Below are positions 9,351-42,170 of a stretch of DNA of 64,000 bases, in pieces; position 1 is the first letter of the stretch; each line of letters opens with the position of its first letter. The stretch is from the NCBI RefSeq assembly GCF_007954625.1, contig NZ_CP042420.1, forward strand, positions 248,001-312,000. The letters are read 5' to 3'. Source of the DNA: Leuconostoc lactis (GTDB lineage Bacteria; Bacillota; Bacilli; Lactobacillales; Lactobacillaceae). The position numbers and the translations under genes are program-made. Below the pieces are notes generated by a model. It did not search any database and was not told where the DNA came from. It saw only the letters and a list, made by a program, of their open reading frames with translations.

Positions 9351-10508
9351 TTACATCAATGCTTTAATCTTGTCGACTTGATCCAATGCTTCCCAAGGTA
9401 AATCAATATCTGTTCGGCCAAAGTGACCAAACGCAGCTGTTTGCTTGTAAATTGGGCGACGGAGATCTAAATGATTGATGATCGCCAAAGGTCGGAAATC
9501 AAAGAGTTGTGCCGTAATGTCACGAATCTTGTCTTCATCAATTTTAGCTGTGCCAAAGGTTTCAATGTTTAATGACACGGGTTGTGCCACACCAATTGCG
9601 TAAGCAACTTGCAATTCTAACTTATCAGCGACACCAGCAGCTACTAGATTTTTAGCCACATAACGCGCAAAATAAGCAGCTGAGCGATCGACCTTGGTCG
9701 CATCCTTACCAGAAAATGCGCCACCACCATGATGGGCCGCCCCACCATAAGTATCAACAATAATCTTACGACCTGTCAAACCAGAATCTGCTTGTGGGCC
9801 ACCAAGAACGAAACGGCCAGATGGGTTAATATAGTAAACCGTTTCATCGTCGACCAAATCTTGTGGCAAAACAGCATCAATGACTAACCGACGGACATCT
9901 TCTCGTAGTTGGTCCAAAGTAACTGTCTCATCGTGTTGTGTTGACAAAACGACTGCTGCAATCCGCGTCACTTGGTTGTTATCATCAAGTTCCACACTGA
10001 CTTCAGCCTTAGCATCTGGGCGCAAGTAACTTAACGTGCCAGCTTCACGGACATCACGAATTTGACGCATTAAACGGTGTGATAAGGCCAAAGTCAACGG
10101 TAAATAACTATCCGTTTCGTTGGTGGCATACCCAAAGACCATGCCTTGATCCCCAGCCCCTAATTGTTCTGGATCATCATCGGCGCTGTCAACCGCTTGG
10201 GCGATATCACCTGATTGTTCCACGATGCGGTTAGAAACGTTCACGGAATCTGCGGTAAAGCCAAGTTCCGCTTGGTTATACCCAATTTCACGAATGGTAT
10301 CCATCGCGATTTGGCGCACATTCACGTAAGCAGATGTTGATAATTCGCCGAAAATTGAGACGTCGCCTGTTGATGTTGTCACTTCGACGGCTGAGCGCGC
10401 ATAAGGATCTTGCGCTAAAACAGCATCCAAAATCGCATCGGCAATTTGATCGGCAATCTTATCGGGATGCCCAGCTGAAACGGATTCTGAGGTAAAATAC
10501 TTTGTCAT
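9351..10508 (-). CDS. metK: S-adenosylmethionine synthetase
   Basis: 385-residue MetK, making SAM from methionine and ATP. Motifs: [18 protein letters not shown] at the N-terminus, [16 protein letters not shown] (residues about 117-132), [15 protein letters not shown] (about 255-269), and [17 protein letters not shown] near the C-terminus. I choose the ATG at 10506-10508: AAGGAGG is 11 nt upstream of it but only 2 nt from the alternative ATG at 10517. The usual Cys in GYACNET is Thr here. Expression is probably controlled by the SAM riboswitch in its 5' leader. Monocistronic as far as can be seen. Confidence 0.97.
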
Positions 10509-10552
10509 GATAAACATGACCTCCTTCGATTTTCAAAATAAAAAGCTACACG

Positions 10553-27702: not shown

Positions 27703-27728
27703 TAACGTGTAGTTGAATATTTAACAAT

Positions 27729-27853
27729 CTGGGGTGCCATTTGGCTGAGAAACACCCATTGAACCTGATCTGGTTAGTACCAGCGAAGGGAGCATTGCGC
27801 TTTAGTGTGTCTTTAAGTAAACGCATGGTTCATAAAAAGCCAGGCGTTTTTTT
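27729..27853 (+). ncRNA. TPP (thiamine pyrophosphate) riboswitch with terminator
   Basis: All conserved TPP blocks are present: GGGGTGC (27731-27737), GCTGAGA (27744-27750), ACCC (27754-27757), GAACCTGATCTGG (27761-27773) and TACCAGCGAAGGGA (27778-27791). A terminator AAACGC...GCGTTT with an inner TGG/CCA (27819-27849) and T7 follows. TPP binding should stop transcription of ykoEDC-tenA. The 90 bases between the terminator and ykoE contain only its SD. Confidence 0.96.
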
Positions 27854-37505: not shown

Positions 37506-37535
37506 TTGACAACATCTTTTCGCTTGTGATACACT
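37506..37535 (+). promoter_or_regulatory. Promoter of SAM-riboswitch transcript
   Basis: TTGACA (37506-37511), 18-nt spacer, TACACT (37530-37535) with an upstream TG. It sits 25 bases before the aptamer. Confidence 0.8.
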
Positions 37536-37559
37536 ACTTGCAACAATTAAATCACGTGT

Positions 37560-37686
37560 TATATCGAGAGCTAGTGAGTGATTACACACTTTGACCTAGC
37601 AGCAACCTACCTTTTGGCAAGGTGCTCCACTGTAATTGGATATACGTCACTTTTAAACGTGTTCGTATATCGAGCACGTTTTTTAT
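37560..37686 (+). ncRNA. SAM riboswitch (S-box-like) with terminator/antiterminator
   Basis: P1 pairs TATATC (37560-37565) with GATATA (37639-37644). P2 pairs GCTAG with CTAGC (37570-37600), with a k-turn-like GA/TGA loop and an AGTG/CACT stem. The P2 loop ATTACA (37581-37586) is fully complementary to TGTAAT (37631-37636), the SAM-I pseudoknot. GCAACC and GGTGC match the S-box core. The 3' P1 strand GATATACG can alternatively pair with CGTATATC (37664-37671), which would break the terminator AACGTG/CACGTT (37656-37680, T-run after). So SAM should switch the gene off. The core closely matches the metK leader. Confidence 0.85.
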
Positions 37687-37726
37687 TTGTTTAACTAGTC
37701 CTTTGGACGTTAAACAGGAGCAATAA

Positions 37727-38050
37727 ATGACAACACTAACCTTAGACGCAGCGCTGCGCCAGCAAGCTTTGACCCAACTTGGGATTGCAAAAGTCCTGAC
37801 GATGCCTGATGTCACCCCAACTGATCTCGTGCTGATGGCCCAGGCCACGCAAGATCCTAAATTACTCACCCAAATTCAACAGGTTGCCGAGTCACAAGCA
37901 CACAACTTCATCAAGCGTTATCAAGCGATACAACATGCCAACGGTTTCGCCGCTAATCGTGGCCGTCAGCAGTTCAAAGCACAATTAAGCGAACTCCTAC
38001 CACTCCTCCCCGAGACGCAACAACAGGCTATTCAAAAAATTTGTCATTAA
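37727..38050 (+). CDS. Unknown 107-residue protein under SAM riboswitch control
   Basis: I do not recognise this protein. It is soluble, apparently all-helical, Gln- and Leu-rich, and has no signal peptide. The segment HNFIKRYQAIQHANGFAANR (residues about 59-78) is basic and could contact nucleic acid or a partner, but this is a guess. It ends ...QKICH, carrying one of very few cysteines in the window. AACAGGAG precedes the ATG at 37727. The gene is alone on its transcript, between a SAM riboswitch and the tRNA-Glu promoter. Its control implies a role tied to SAM or methionine shortage. Confidence 0.8.
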   Translation: MTTLTLDAALRQQALTQLGIAKVLTMPDVTPTDLVLMAQATQDPKLLTQIQQVAESQAHNFIKRYQAIQHANGFAANRGRQQFKAQLSELLPLLPETQQQAIQKICH

Positions 38051-38074
38051 TTCAAAAAAAATTGCAAAAAACGC

Positions 38075-38103
38075 TTGACGTCTGTCGTGAAACTTGTTAT
38101 GAT
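38075..38103 (+). promoter_or_regulatory. tRNA-Glu promoter
   Basis: TTGACG (38075-38080), 17-nt spacer, TATGAT (38098-38103). Confidence 0.8.
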
Positions 38104-38144
38104 ATTATATGTTGTTTGATAGTAATTCAGACATCACTGACCAT

Positions 38145-38734: not shown

Positions 38735-40684
38735 TTAGTCTATCGTTGTCTGATTTAACGTAACCAATTTTCTTCTCAAGTCATCATTTACAGCATAAAT
38801 ATAAAGGCCATGTACACCGCGTGTCAGCAAAACATTAACAATGTTTTTTAGAAATGCTTTATTTTCAGCAGTATTATACGTCCCATTCTGCTTGCGCATT
38901 TTAGAATGATCAAATGAATAGTCAGCGTCAATATCTAACGCATTTGTTGCCTCATTCCAAATAACTGATGGTCCCAAAATTACCCCAACATAATTCAAAT
39001 CAATCCCTTGAACTGTGAAGTCGCTACCAACCTCGCCAATACTTTCCGCAATTTCTTGCCATGGTATTTGTTTATTTTGAGCTAACTTGACTTGTGGTAA
39101 TTCAAGATTCCAAGGAACAATCTCACTACCAAAATTCACTGTCCAATATTGACCATCTTTTGGCCTTGATCCTTGCGAATATTTCCAATCGTAAGTTGCT
39201 ACTAATCTGCTTAACCCAACTTCTTCATTTTTCTTTTCAATCGCAGCTTTGAATTTTTTTGCACTGTCAAAAAATTTAATTTGATACGTCTCATCATTTG
39301 GCGGCATAATCAGCGAATTGTTTTCAAAATGGGCTAAATTTTCAATCCACTGTTGCGTTTGTTTACTAGCTTGTATCCGCCACTGATTTTCTAAGTAAAG
39401 TGTTGTGGTATCTGGCCCATTAACTAACCACCAAAGTGTGTCATTATCACTGATATTGTTTCTCACCGATGTTACCTGTTTTGGATCATAAACCAATACC
39501 ATTGTACGCGCTAATTCATGTAGGGCCTGTAAATCTGGTTGCCATTTCGCTTTATTAACACGCCCGTAATTACCACTCCATAAGAGATGTGCCTCATCTA
39601 CCAAAAGAACATCAACCGGTTCGCCTCTATTAATAAATGTCGGTACATCCATCACAACATTCTTGCCCATATTTAGCTTACGGGCAATCTGTTCATAAGT
39701 GCGCCGTTGTTGTTCATGACGCACTAACAGCACAACGTTGGCCAAATGTTTTGATTTTTTATCCGCATTTAATACCGGATACGGATTTTGCCAAATTTCA
39801 TAAAAAAGTTGCGCCATCAGCACAGTCTTCCCAGAACCAGCAAGCCCCTGTATCTTGATAATTTTATTATCCCAACCATTGGCTAAAGTCTCTGCTATCG
39901 TAAGACCAATACGATTTTTTGCCTTTTCCTGTTCTGGACTTAATGATTTAAATGGACTATTGGCAAAAAGGGCTGAATTTTTGACAGCTTGCAAACTCGA
40001 TACGATATTTTGTTGCCGTAGTCGTTCCCATATTTCAGGAAAAATACCTGACCGATAGGTTTCCCGTTGATAAAAGTCATTGGATAAACCGTTGTTACGA
40101 CCATTGTATATTTTTTCAAACTTGTCATCGCCTAACAGATAATCCATGAACATTTGTTCAATTTCTAATGTCGCTGACTTGTTAAATTTTGAATGACCTA
40201 TAATGTGCAATGATTCGTTATGTTCGTCGGCAACAGCTTTAATCTCATTTAACTTATCTTCTTGTGCGTTCAAGTGTTCAATTGTTCGACGCACAATTGC
40301 ACTCGCTTCGCCAACATAAACTAATTGCTTCGTCTGCTCGGTATGCTCATTCGTTTGTTTCCCTATCCCCAAATAAACTGTTGGATAATTGGTCAATATC
40401 GTATTTTGAGCGGTCTTTGCAAAATTTTCAATAGCATCTTTCGAATAATCGATCGTCTTTATCATTAGATTACCGCTATCAATAAAGCCAAATACGGATA
40501 ATATTTCATGTGCATTAAAACCAAGAAGCCCAAAATAATCTGCTAATAATTCATTAGGAATCGCACGCTTATTTTTCTCCCAATTTTGAACAGCCTGTCG
40601 TGTAACATTCAAAAATCGTGCGACGTCATCCTGTGTGTAACCTTTGTCTTCTCTTTTTTGCTTAATTAACTCATACAATTTCAT
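38735..40684 (-). CDS. XRE HTH - GIY-YIG - DUF2075 (P-loop) fusion, candidate defence protein
   Basis: 649 residues with three parts. Residues 1-60 are an XRE helix-turn-helix (GYTQDDVARFLNVTRQAVQNWE). Residues about 100-215 look like a GIY-YIG nuclease domain: VYLGIG, LVYVGEAS, a following RR, and an acidic EIEQMF helix. From about 255 on it is a DUF2075 P-loop ATPase/helicase-like module: Walker A GLAGSGKT (280-287), Walker B VLLVDEAH (359-366), and the C-terminal LLTRGVHGLYIYAVND. The HTH suggests self-regulation or DNA targeting. DUF2075 and GIY-YIG both occur in anti-phage contexts, but function here is inferred. SD is weak; GATAAT lies just upstream of the ATG. Confidence 0.82.
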   Translation of the reverse strand: MKLYELIKQKREDKGYTQDDVARFLNVTRQAVQNWEKNKRAIPNELLADYFGLLGFNAHEILSVFGFIDSGNLMIKTIDYSKDAIENFAKTAQNTILTNYPTVYLGIGKQTNEHTEQTKQLVYVGEASAIVRRTIEHLNAQEDKLNEIKAVADEHNESLHIIGHSKFNKSATLEIEQMFMDYLLGDDKFEKIYNGRNNGLSNDFYQRETYRSGIFPEIWERLRQQNIVSSLQAVKNSALFANSPFKSLSPEQEKAKNRIGLTIAETLANGWDNKIIKIQGLAGSGKTVLMAQLFYEIWQNPYPVLNADKKSKHLANVVLLVRHEQQRRTYEQIARKLNMGKNVVMDVPTFINRGEPVDVLLVDEAHLLWSGNYGRVNKAKWQPDLQALHELARTMVLVYDPKQVTSVRNNISDNDTLWWLVNGPDTTTLYLENQWRIQASKQTQQWIENLAHFENNSLIMPPNDETYQIKFFDSAKKFKAAIEKKNEEVGLSRLVATYDWKYSQGSRPKDGQYWTVNFGSEIVPWNLELPQVKLAQNKQIPWQEIAESIGEVGSDFTVQGIDLNYVGVILGPSVIWNEATNALDIDADYSFDHSKMRKQNGTYNTAENKAFLKNIVNVLLTRGVHGLYIYAVNDDLRRKLVTLNQTTID

Positions 40685-40778: not shown

Positions 40779-42170
40779 CTACTCCCCCAAAAGCGCATCA
40801 AACTTCGCTTTCATGGTTGGATTGTTTTTCGTTAATTTTTTGACACTGACATCTTCCAGTTTATTATTCGCCAAGCGAAGTTGATTTTCTGATGTGGTGA
40901 GGGCTTTTTTGACTGCTTCCATCCGAGCAATTGACTTATCAATTTCATCAATCGCCTTTTTAAAGTTATTTGAGGCACTTTGAAAGTTTTTGCCGAAAGC
41001 CTGCTTGAAGTTCGTCAGATCACTTTCAAAATGCGTGATATCAATGTTTTGTTCACGAACTTGCGCGAGTTCCTGCTTGTACGCAACCGTGTTTAGGGCA
41101 GCGTTACGTAACACCCCGATGAATTGAATAAAGAATTGCGGGCGAATAACGTACATTTTCTCATAATTTGGCACTTGTACAATACCGGTATTGTATAAGT
41201 CACTATCCGCTTCCAGCATCGATACCAATACGGCATACTCGGTATTCTTTTCACGGCGATCTTTATCTAATTCCTTGAAAAAGTCAGCGTTCTTATGCTT
41301 GGTTGCCGTCGTATCGGCTTCGTTTTTCATATCAAACATGATGCTGATAAATTCCAACCCATCTTGATAATCACGGAAAATAAAGTCACCCTTAGAGTTG
41401 GTTTCCGATAACGTATTATCCTTTTCAAAATAGGCATTAGGAAAGGCATAAGACCGAATCTTGCTAAACTCCGTCATCGCGTATTGTTCCAAACTTTCGC
41501 CAATTTCCTTGGTCGATTGCCGTGCCTTAAAGTCCTTATAGAATTCAATTTGTTCTTGAGCGACTTTTAACTGCGCTTCAAATTGGTTCTGCACGTTCGT
41601 TAGTTCTAACTGTTGTTTTTGGTCTTTCAATTCCAACTGCGACGTCAATTCCGCCAGCTTCTTATCCCGCGTTGCCAATTCGGCTTGCACGGCTGCATCC
41701 TTTTTAACCAACGCCGTTTCCAATTCGGCTTGCCCTTGTTGCTTGGCCGCTTCAATTTTAGCCACTAATTGCGCGATTTCTGCGTCTTTTTTAGCCATGG
41801 TATCTTGGATATCCAACTCCTTTTGCACGAGCTGAGACTGCAATTCTGCGGCGTTCTGCTGCATTAAATTATCCAACTTGGTCTCTAACGCGATGATTTG
41901 TTGGGCTTTATCGTTCAACTCGGCTTGCATGGTCTGTTTTTGCGCTTGCAAGTGATTTTCCAGCTCAACGGCAGCTTGCTTTTCTTGTTGTTTAAGCCAT
42001 TCTTCACGGGCTTGCGCTAATTTATCTTCTAAAATATCGGCAATTTTCCCGTTGACAATACTCGTATCAATATTTTGTTCATCCGTGAGATCAATCACAT
42101 CCCCAGCATGGGCGTCTTGATCAAGGACGAGTTCGGTTTGCGATGCAATATGAAATTTAACTTTTGCCAT
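40779..42170 (-). CDS. DUF2130 domain protein with long coiled coil
   Basis: 463 residues. About 1-45 is a small N-terminal domain (VIDLTDEQNIDTSIV). About 60-230 is a Gln/Glu/Lys-rich coiled coil with repeated AQ/LE/KD heptads. About 235-370 is DUF2130: EIGESLEQYAMTEFSKIRS, GDFIFRDYQDGLEFISIMFDMKNEAD and VSMLEADSDLYNTGI. A second coiled coil ends the protein. The D...MKNE pattern resembles a PD-(D/E)xK nuclease core, and the layout recalls RmuC; activity is inferred. GATAGAGGT precedes the ATG. Next to the DUF2075 fusion gene. Confidence 0.85.
   Translation of the reverse strand: MAKVKFHIASQTELVLDQDAHAGDVIDLTDEQNIDTSIVNGKIADILEDKLAQAREEWLKQQEKQAAVELENHLQAQKQTMQAELNDKAQQIIALETKLDNLMQQNAAELQSQLVQKELDIQDTMAKKDAEIAQLVAKIEAAKQQGQAELETALVKKDAAVQAELATRDKKLAELTSQLELKDQKQQLELTNVQNQFEAQLKVAQEQIEFYKDFKARQSTKEIGESLEQYAMTEFSKIRSYAFPNAYFEKDNTLSETNSKGDFIFRDYQDGLEFISIMFDMKNEADTTATKHKNADFFKELDKDRREKNTEYAVLVSMLEADSDLYNTGIVQVPNYEKMYVIRPQFFIQFIGVLRNAALNTVAYKQELAQVREQNIDITHFESDLTNFKQAFGKNFQSASNNFKKAIDEIDKSIARMEAVKKALTTSENQLRLANNKLEDVSVKKLTKNNPTMKAKFDALLGE

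Follow-up and report, generated by a model that had tools for sequence, protein, structure and literature searches.

The window analysed here is a stretch of 64,000 nucleotides from Leuconostoc lactis, in which a regulatory leader (37506-37681) and a small open reading frame (ORF) follow one another on the forward strand. The leader begins with a putative promoter, recognised in a consensus scan by the hexamers TTGACA and TACACT at a spacing of 18 nt (37506-37535, 10 of 12 matches), which is followed by a conserved 5' tail, CAACAATTAAATCACGTG (37541-37558), ahead of helix P1 of an aptamer. The core of this tail, AAATCACGTGTTATATC, is unchanged in eight of the nine homologous loci, the exception being L006. 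The aptamer (37558-37646) is of the SAM-I type with a reduced P4, as judged from its match to RF00162 and from helix covariation in 64 leaders, and its pseudoknot joins UUACA in the loop of P2 (37582-37586) to UGUAA in J3/4 (37631-37635), the latter at the place where P4 would start. The 3' strand of P1, GATATACG (37639-37646), also provides the first half of an antiterminator; it is the exact 8-bp complement of the second half, CGTATATC (37664-37671), which lies inside an intrinsic terminator (37655-37681) located by a terminator scan. A ribosome-binding site read from the sequence, AGGAG (37716-37720), precedes an ORF of 107 residues (37727-38050), the window member of a family that we call F1 and that is recognised as a gene from its open frame, its omega values and its homologues. 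A tRNA-Glu(ttc) with its own promoter-like site lies 3' of the ORF.

The original prediction had described a complete S-box-like aptamer, and a profile search against the SAM clan of Rfam upholds the clan but not the completeness. Using cmscan, 37558-37646 (+) was found to give a full-length match to RF00162 at 40.2 bits (E 1.7e-7), short of the gathering score of 44.4 for this model. As the small-gene leader scores under the cut-off, a standard Rfam scan of the window yields only the other SAM-I leader of the genome (10605-10707, reverse strand, 45.7 bits), which lies ahead of metK (9351-10517, reverse strand, recognised by its sequence) and is used here as a comparator. These two leaders are the only RF00162 matches in the whole genome at E <= 1, and SAM-III (RF01767) has no match in this genome at the same threshold. 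The P1-P2-P3 core with its conserved P3 strands is present (the strict pattern GCAAC..GUGC occurs in 59 of 64 leaders), and the alignment to the RF00162 model shows an internal loop in P2 that may form the kink-turn. P4, in contrast to a full S-box, is cut to 2-3 possible pairs between the 3' strands of P3 and P1, which would enclose the pseudoknot strand UGUAA. On its sequence, the leader is filed as a probable SAM-I-like variant of the SAM clan rather than as a plain member of RF00162. Elsewhere in the window a TPP riboswitch is found at 27720-27809 (+) with a score of 72 bits.

Covariation was studied in an alignment (A9) of 64 leaders, 55 of them distinct, from which metK leaders and those of L115-L118 were left out. 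The five pairs of the pseudoknot are paired in 99.6% of the cells, with two-sided changes at all five, and their covariation score of 0.710 compares with a shuffled mean of 0.263, none of 500 shuffles being as high; when the strands are slid out of register, the score falls to 0.160 or less. For the nested helices and the terminator taken together, 96.2% of the cells are paired and 23 of 34 pairs show two-sided changes, including 10 of 10 pairs in the terminator stem, although the nested helices are favoured in this respect because the alignment was fitted to them, whereas the pseudoknot is absent from the model. The predicted terminator and its exact 8-bp antiterminator are borne out, since 8 bp of complement to GATATACG was never reached when the letters of the downstream segment were shuffled 200 times. 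In the 55 distinct leaders, P1' can pair with the downstream segment over a longest stretch of 5.9 nt on average, as against 3.8 nt after shuffling, and 29 of them reach 6 nt or more. The whole leader folds at -38.1 kcal/mol against a shuffle mean of -28.4 (z -3.3); the aptamer by itself is no more stable than its shuffles (z -0.7), and the case for it therefore rests on the covariance model and on covariation. The minimum-energy fold holds the antiterminator and the centroid holds the terminator, as would be expected of the alternative states of such a switch.

From this anatomy, a transcriptional OFF switch can be proposed. At high SAM the aptamer, comprising P1, P2, P3 and the 5-bp pseudoknot, would close P1, the terminator would fold and the gene would remain silent; when SAM is low, the terminator would be paired instead with the 3' strand of P1 and transcription would continue, so that a compact helical protein of 107 residues would be made together with metK. 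A search of the interval from the ORF to the tRNA-Glu (38050-38144) gave no terminator, so that read-through into the tRNA at low SAM is possible. The order of ORF and tRNA-Glu is also kept in L002, L003 and L004, and the tRNA-Glu follows in the four loci of the L. lactis/holzapfelii/citreum group. The tRNA was considered as a co-regulated target and set aside, as it has its own promoter-like site and lies beside only four of the nine loci.

Four comparisons inside the L. lactis/holzapfelii/citreum group give omega values of 0.15-0.30, which indicates that the ORF is coding and under purifying selection; constraint is weaker (0.35-0.75, four comparisons) in the MSSILD subgroup of Leuconostoc and Fructobacillus. 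The F1 protein sequence evolves faster than neighbouring genes: dN is 0.144 versus 0.044 in the adjacent gene, at an equal dS of 0.559. The protein had been described as unrecognised and helical; it is indeed unrecognised, and it is predicted to be helical. No family is named by Pfam (best E 0.02), NCBIfam (0.066), PHROGs (0.093) or PADLOC (no match), with no score above a family's curated cut-off, and the AlphaFold2 model is confident and all-helical, with no clear structural match in the PDB. A cysteine near the C-terminus, to which the original prediction had attached significance, is not conserved in the F1 alignment. Searching with profile A5, we obtained 155 database homologues at E <= 0.01, which are hypothetical proteins of Leuconostoc and Lactobacillus delbrueckii, and no function name occurs among the best 120 of these 155 matches. 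Among the matches listed, the L. delbrueckii forms (P0015-P0124) have variable C-termini and contain a unit of about 30-37 residues once, twice or three times. These units, which may resemble LRV/HEAT repeats, look as if they were gained and lost by recombination. When 52 proteins under such leaders were scanned against Pfam, NCBIfam and PADLOC, only weak scattered matches were seen, as was the case in a repeated Pfam scan of ten of them; DUF6800 was matched by five leader-linked proteins (1.3e-4), and a match of two to PglX (6.4e-6) was judged by eye to reflect coiled-coil resemblance and was rejected.

Conservation of the leader together with the gene was examined in 60 genomes, and an F1 homologue was found in nine, the window's own included, with the leader present at all nine loci. 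Across 11 F1 loci compared with the window, identity ranges from 81 to 100% for the aptamer and from 18 to 79% for the protein. F1-like leaders scoring above 90 bits amount to 19 copies in 18 of 397 Lactobacillaceae genomes, covering seven genera, and an exact leader pattern recovers 17 stretches in GTDB representatives, which belong to Leuconostoc, Fructobacillus, Weissella, Periweissella, Ligilactobacillus, Liquorilactobacillus and Lactobacillus, plus one record named "Faecalicatena". In this last record (L129, labelled Faecalicatena absiana, about 2.2 Mb) both leader and protein are much like those of Lactobacillus, and it may be mislabelled, contaminated or a real transfer. The leader also occurs on four plasmids typed as mobilizable, from Lactococcus, Leuconostoc and Latilactobacillus, of which the Lactococcus one lies outside the family. 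In three of the four the ORF, full-length on two of them and 78 residues long on the third, stands directly after genes for pilin and sortase; the plasmid of Leuconostoc pseudomesenteroides (L149) carries the leader without a small ORF. The next large genes on this plasmid (L149:10013-14253) match PbeA and PbeC, and here the SAM-I-type leader may now stand directly ahead of a defence operon. A search of the plasmids with the window protein gave no match, though the leader matched there, because the plasmid proteins are too divergent. Transposase-like genes are seen near several copies of the leader, and four broken copies were met in the survey described below (one of the two in G220, and those in G017, G389 and G311). 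As regards a phage origin, neither leader nor protein has a match in 50,697 phage records, and the leader pattern has none in IMG/VR. F1 is a fast-evolving family of lactic acid bacteria that is also borne on plasmids, and the patchy, plasmid-borne and decaying pair has the look of an accessory gene subject to repeated gain and loss.

Leaders of this kind are not confined to F1. A covariance model built from the nine F1 leaders (R1) was used to survey 397 Lactobacillaceae genomes and returned 104 places, 94 of which were examined with their flanks or in the window; since R1 was trained on F1 and stricter filters were applied in the large surveys, these counts are lower bounds skewed to F1-like leaders. 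The other ten places (56-69, 54-60 and 42-45 bits; eight in the genus Leuconostoc, two in g2) were left unclassified, and their bit range suggests that they are metK leaders. A renewed search of the examined loci gave 96 matches, and the first downstream gene was read for 95, a 25-bit match in L118 being left unclassified and a 28-bit match there being called spurious. This gene is metK in 31 cases, an intact small ORF of 37-234 residues in 54 and a broken small ORF in four; three of the remaining leaders stand ahead of a 49-residue ORF with a canonical SAM-I, two ahead of a large gene, and one is spurious. Small-gene leaders, the four broken cases among them, therefore make up 58 of 95, from 49 genomes and 14 genera by hand count. 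The 54 intact cases correspond to 52 ORFs, because the ORFs in L092 and L112 each follow two leaders. Genes were called with a rough script, and the second ORF was taken in L060 and L063, where the nearest is of 37 residues (L063 is seemingly frameshifted). The tandem arrangement, two SAM-I-type leaders before one small ORF (L092:5001-5368, L112:4693-5138), occurs in two unrelated genomes. In L099 (1423-4860) a leader lies 141 nt ahead of a gene for 1146 residues that has no sequence match in the PDB.

With RF00162 itself, 77 of these 397 genomes give a match, and the model sees little of this class: 19 of the 58 small-gene leaders match below its cut-off, one matches above it (one of the two tandem leaders in G223), and the rest are undetected at E <= 0.001. 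A further 25 RF00162 places comprise 21 ahead of metK and four ahead of an ORF of 48-52 residues; ORFs of the latter size follow canonical SAM-I leaders of 58-76 bits in genus g50 (L115-L117, L159-L161, L165). Across the whole order, R1 matches in 26 of 395 genomes, and of 15 such loci sorted by script, 13 stand before small ORFs, one before metK and one is unreadable. P4 reduction is not universal among these order-wide leaders, and one of their small proteins matches a hypothetical protein of Enterococcus. The family of the window protein is shown to be one of several unalignable families of small proteins under the same kind of leader. As similar switches precede many small, fast-changing and apparently mobile genes in lactic acid bacteria, the SAM switch seems to be used beyond methionine metabolism.

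Common descent of F1 and a second such family, F2, was considered and rejected, their profiles (A5 and A6) having no similarity (hhalign probability 1.8%). A short stretch of the form G/S-aromatic-Ala had, however, been spotted by eye in several of the small proteins, and its counterpart in the window protein, according to the F1 alignment, is NGFAANRGRQQ at residues 72-82 (37940-37972, +). A matrix derived from 19 F1 words alone was run on 42 non-F1 proteins under SAM-I leaders, near-copies having been left out and some relatives remaining, with 500 shuffles per protein and 100 for controls. The motif exceeds the protein's own shuffles at p < 0.05 in 13 of 42 cases versus 10 of 170 ordinary small proteins (one-sided Fisher p 3e-5), and at p < 0.01 in nine of 42 versus two of 170 controls at p <= 0.01 (one-sided Fisher p 9e-6), p-values that are optimistic because the motif and its window were chosen after looking and some proteins are related. 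Examples are NSWSASLARQN, RGYASYMARAW, TNWASAMARHY and CSWATSLLHAN; in 29 of the 42 proteins the motif is not significant. In statistical terms, it is shown that some otherwise unalignable small proteins have this candidate motif in common.

The surroundings of the F1 loci are diverse. No neighbour is common to all of them and no mobility gene is conserved beside the copies; two upstream genes are shared by L042, L125 and L126, and two downstream genes by L044, L045 and L051. Methionine genes were not read beside any F1 locus except L047, where two likely sulfur amino-acid genes were seen by eye 2.5-4.6 kb upstream. For a wider view, 171 flanking proteins from 45 loci were collected, those above 1400 residues or with unknown residues being left out, and 169 were scanned (two pilus genes of L148 were omitted); the controls were 147 of 155 proteins from randomly placed regions, of which the first 37 of 39 were used for reasons of size. 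A strong PADLOC match of the restriction or defence type lies within two genes of the leader in nine of 45 loci: HKD with Snf2 (L124, L042), type I restriction (L125), DndH (L046), JetC with a further helicase (L073), a type II methyltransferase (L096, L058), PbeA/PbeC (L149) and PDC-M33A (L044). These nine rest on 17 hand-picked proteins scanned singly, a treatment that the controls did not receive. The hand-picked proteins of L045, L053, L075, L051 and the window (40782-42170) had no PADLOC match, and in 36 of 45 loci no restriction or defence neighbour was found. The best 25 of the 40 families matched by the controls are helicase-type models (GajB, AbiO, Nhi, RTasHel, SspH), mad3, mad8, MzaA and PDC-S33, and matches of this control type also occur in the test set among the best 25 families of each scan. 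Depending on whether 0 to 4 of the 37 control regions are called defence, p ranges from 0.003 to 0.20. The signal is therefore suggestive only, because accessory genes cluster in any case and only the test loci were read one protein at a time.

Two loci illustrate these surroundings. Next to the window cassette lies a gene for 649 residues (38735-40684, reverse strand), which we take to combine XRE, GIY-YIG and DUF2075 helicase-like parts, and for which PADLOC gives only a weak match to AbiO (2.5e-11); a similar-looking gene, with no PADLOC match, is found near the unrelated F2 leader of L075. In L073 (422-10116) the leader is flanked on one side by a JetC-like gene and on the other by a sigma-factor-like gene, after which comes a RecQ-like helicase.

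Considering these observations together, we regard it as probable that the window holds a SAM-sensing transcriptional OFF switch ahead of a small, horizontally mobile accessory gene, which more likely serves genome conflict than methionine metabolism. The main rival to a genome-conflict function is a role in SAM physiology, essentially that of the original prediction, in which the protein would be an undescribed helper made at low SAM, such as a small protein regulating MetK, the uptake of methionine or an enzyme that consumes SAM. Co-control with metK, whose leader is the genome's one further SAM-I leader, would fit such physiology, and SAM-I leaders control methionine and SAM genes according to the available part of PMC11477304. 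A pair that is patchily present, carried on plasmids, sometimes broken and quick to change, with the methionine-related genes near L047 as the one exception in its surroundings and with the same kind of leader preceding other, unalignable small proteins, argues against it, and we consider this role unlikely. The far better conservation of the aptamer than of the protein could instead mean that the leader, once terminated, works as a trans-acting small RNA, in the manner of the SAM riboswitches SreA/SreB of Listeria (PMC9495176, in the part available), and that the ORF is of little importance; with the ORF under purifying selection and a homologous ORF after all nine leaders (loci that were, however, found through the protein), this appears very improbable.

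It is also conceivable that the cassette is of service to its carrier, a plasmid or another element, for instance through stability or through transfer timed by low SAM, in keeping with the four mobilizable plasmids and the transposase-like genes; most copies, however, are on contigs of chromosomal size beside unrelated genes and have no conserved mobility gene at their side, which leaves such service improbable. Within the genome-conflict reading, we propose tentatively, from its mobility, its fast change, its decay, its predicted helical build and its surroundings, that the protein is an adaptor or inhibitor acting at low SAM in genome conflict or on SAM-dependent restriction-modification, and not a methionine enzyme; its target is hypothetical, and we would not press this assignment further than a serious possibility. 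More broadly, and doubtfully, the Lactobacillales may harbour a previously unrecognised class of mobile SAM-depletion cassettes, with SAM-I-like leaders that are often P4-reduced and mostly under the Rfam threshold, and with small fast-evolving proteins, part of them bearing the G/S-aromatic-Ala helix motif, that would be released at SAM collapse; the metabolite riboswitch would then be the sensor of a safeguard that is directed at invaders or works by self-restriction. Such a collapse could follow the draining of SAM by phage enzymes or DNA modification.

A SAM riboswitch is read as a sign that a methionine or SAM gene follows. Among the classified leaders of the Lactobacillaceae, small genes of unknown function outnumber metK, and the Rfam threshold conceals a P4-reduced variant that covaries well. 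The outcome is a set of genes expected to be on when SAM falls, together with a short motif to pursue, and if the SAM-depletion reading is true, a metabolite riboswitch would be tied to genome conflict. No description of a class of SAM leaders before small genes was found in the open-access literature, a scope outside which most subscription journals fall and which includes the available parts of PMC2258182, PMC2965389, PMC11477304, PMC2864571 and PMC9495176. The first of these, as far as available, treats the distribution of SAM-I and suggests horizontal transfer for riboswitches that occur sporadically.

Compared with known systems, the window leader resembles SAM-I (S box, RF00162) in its P1-P2-P3 core, its pseudoknot between the P2 loop and J3/4 and its terminator/antiterminator platform, but differs in a P4 of 2-3 possible pairs, a score below the cut-off and a small mobile gene in place of a methionine or SAM gene. 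The metK leader of the same genome belongs to the same clan family and has the same kind of pseudoknot (UACAG with CUGUA), whereas it scores just over the cut-off and controls a core enzyme. The SAM-I/IV variant RF01725 is likewise a variant within the SAM-I/SAM-IV superfamily, but it is described, in the available part of PMC2864571, without the P2 internal loop that the window leader possesses. The mobile attenuators of Naville and Gautheret (PMC2965389, in the part available) are also related attenuators ahead of unrelated genes; those, however, are terminators derived from insertion sequences or prophages, whereas here a full aptamer travels and, in F1, does so together with its gene.
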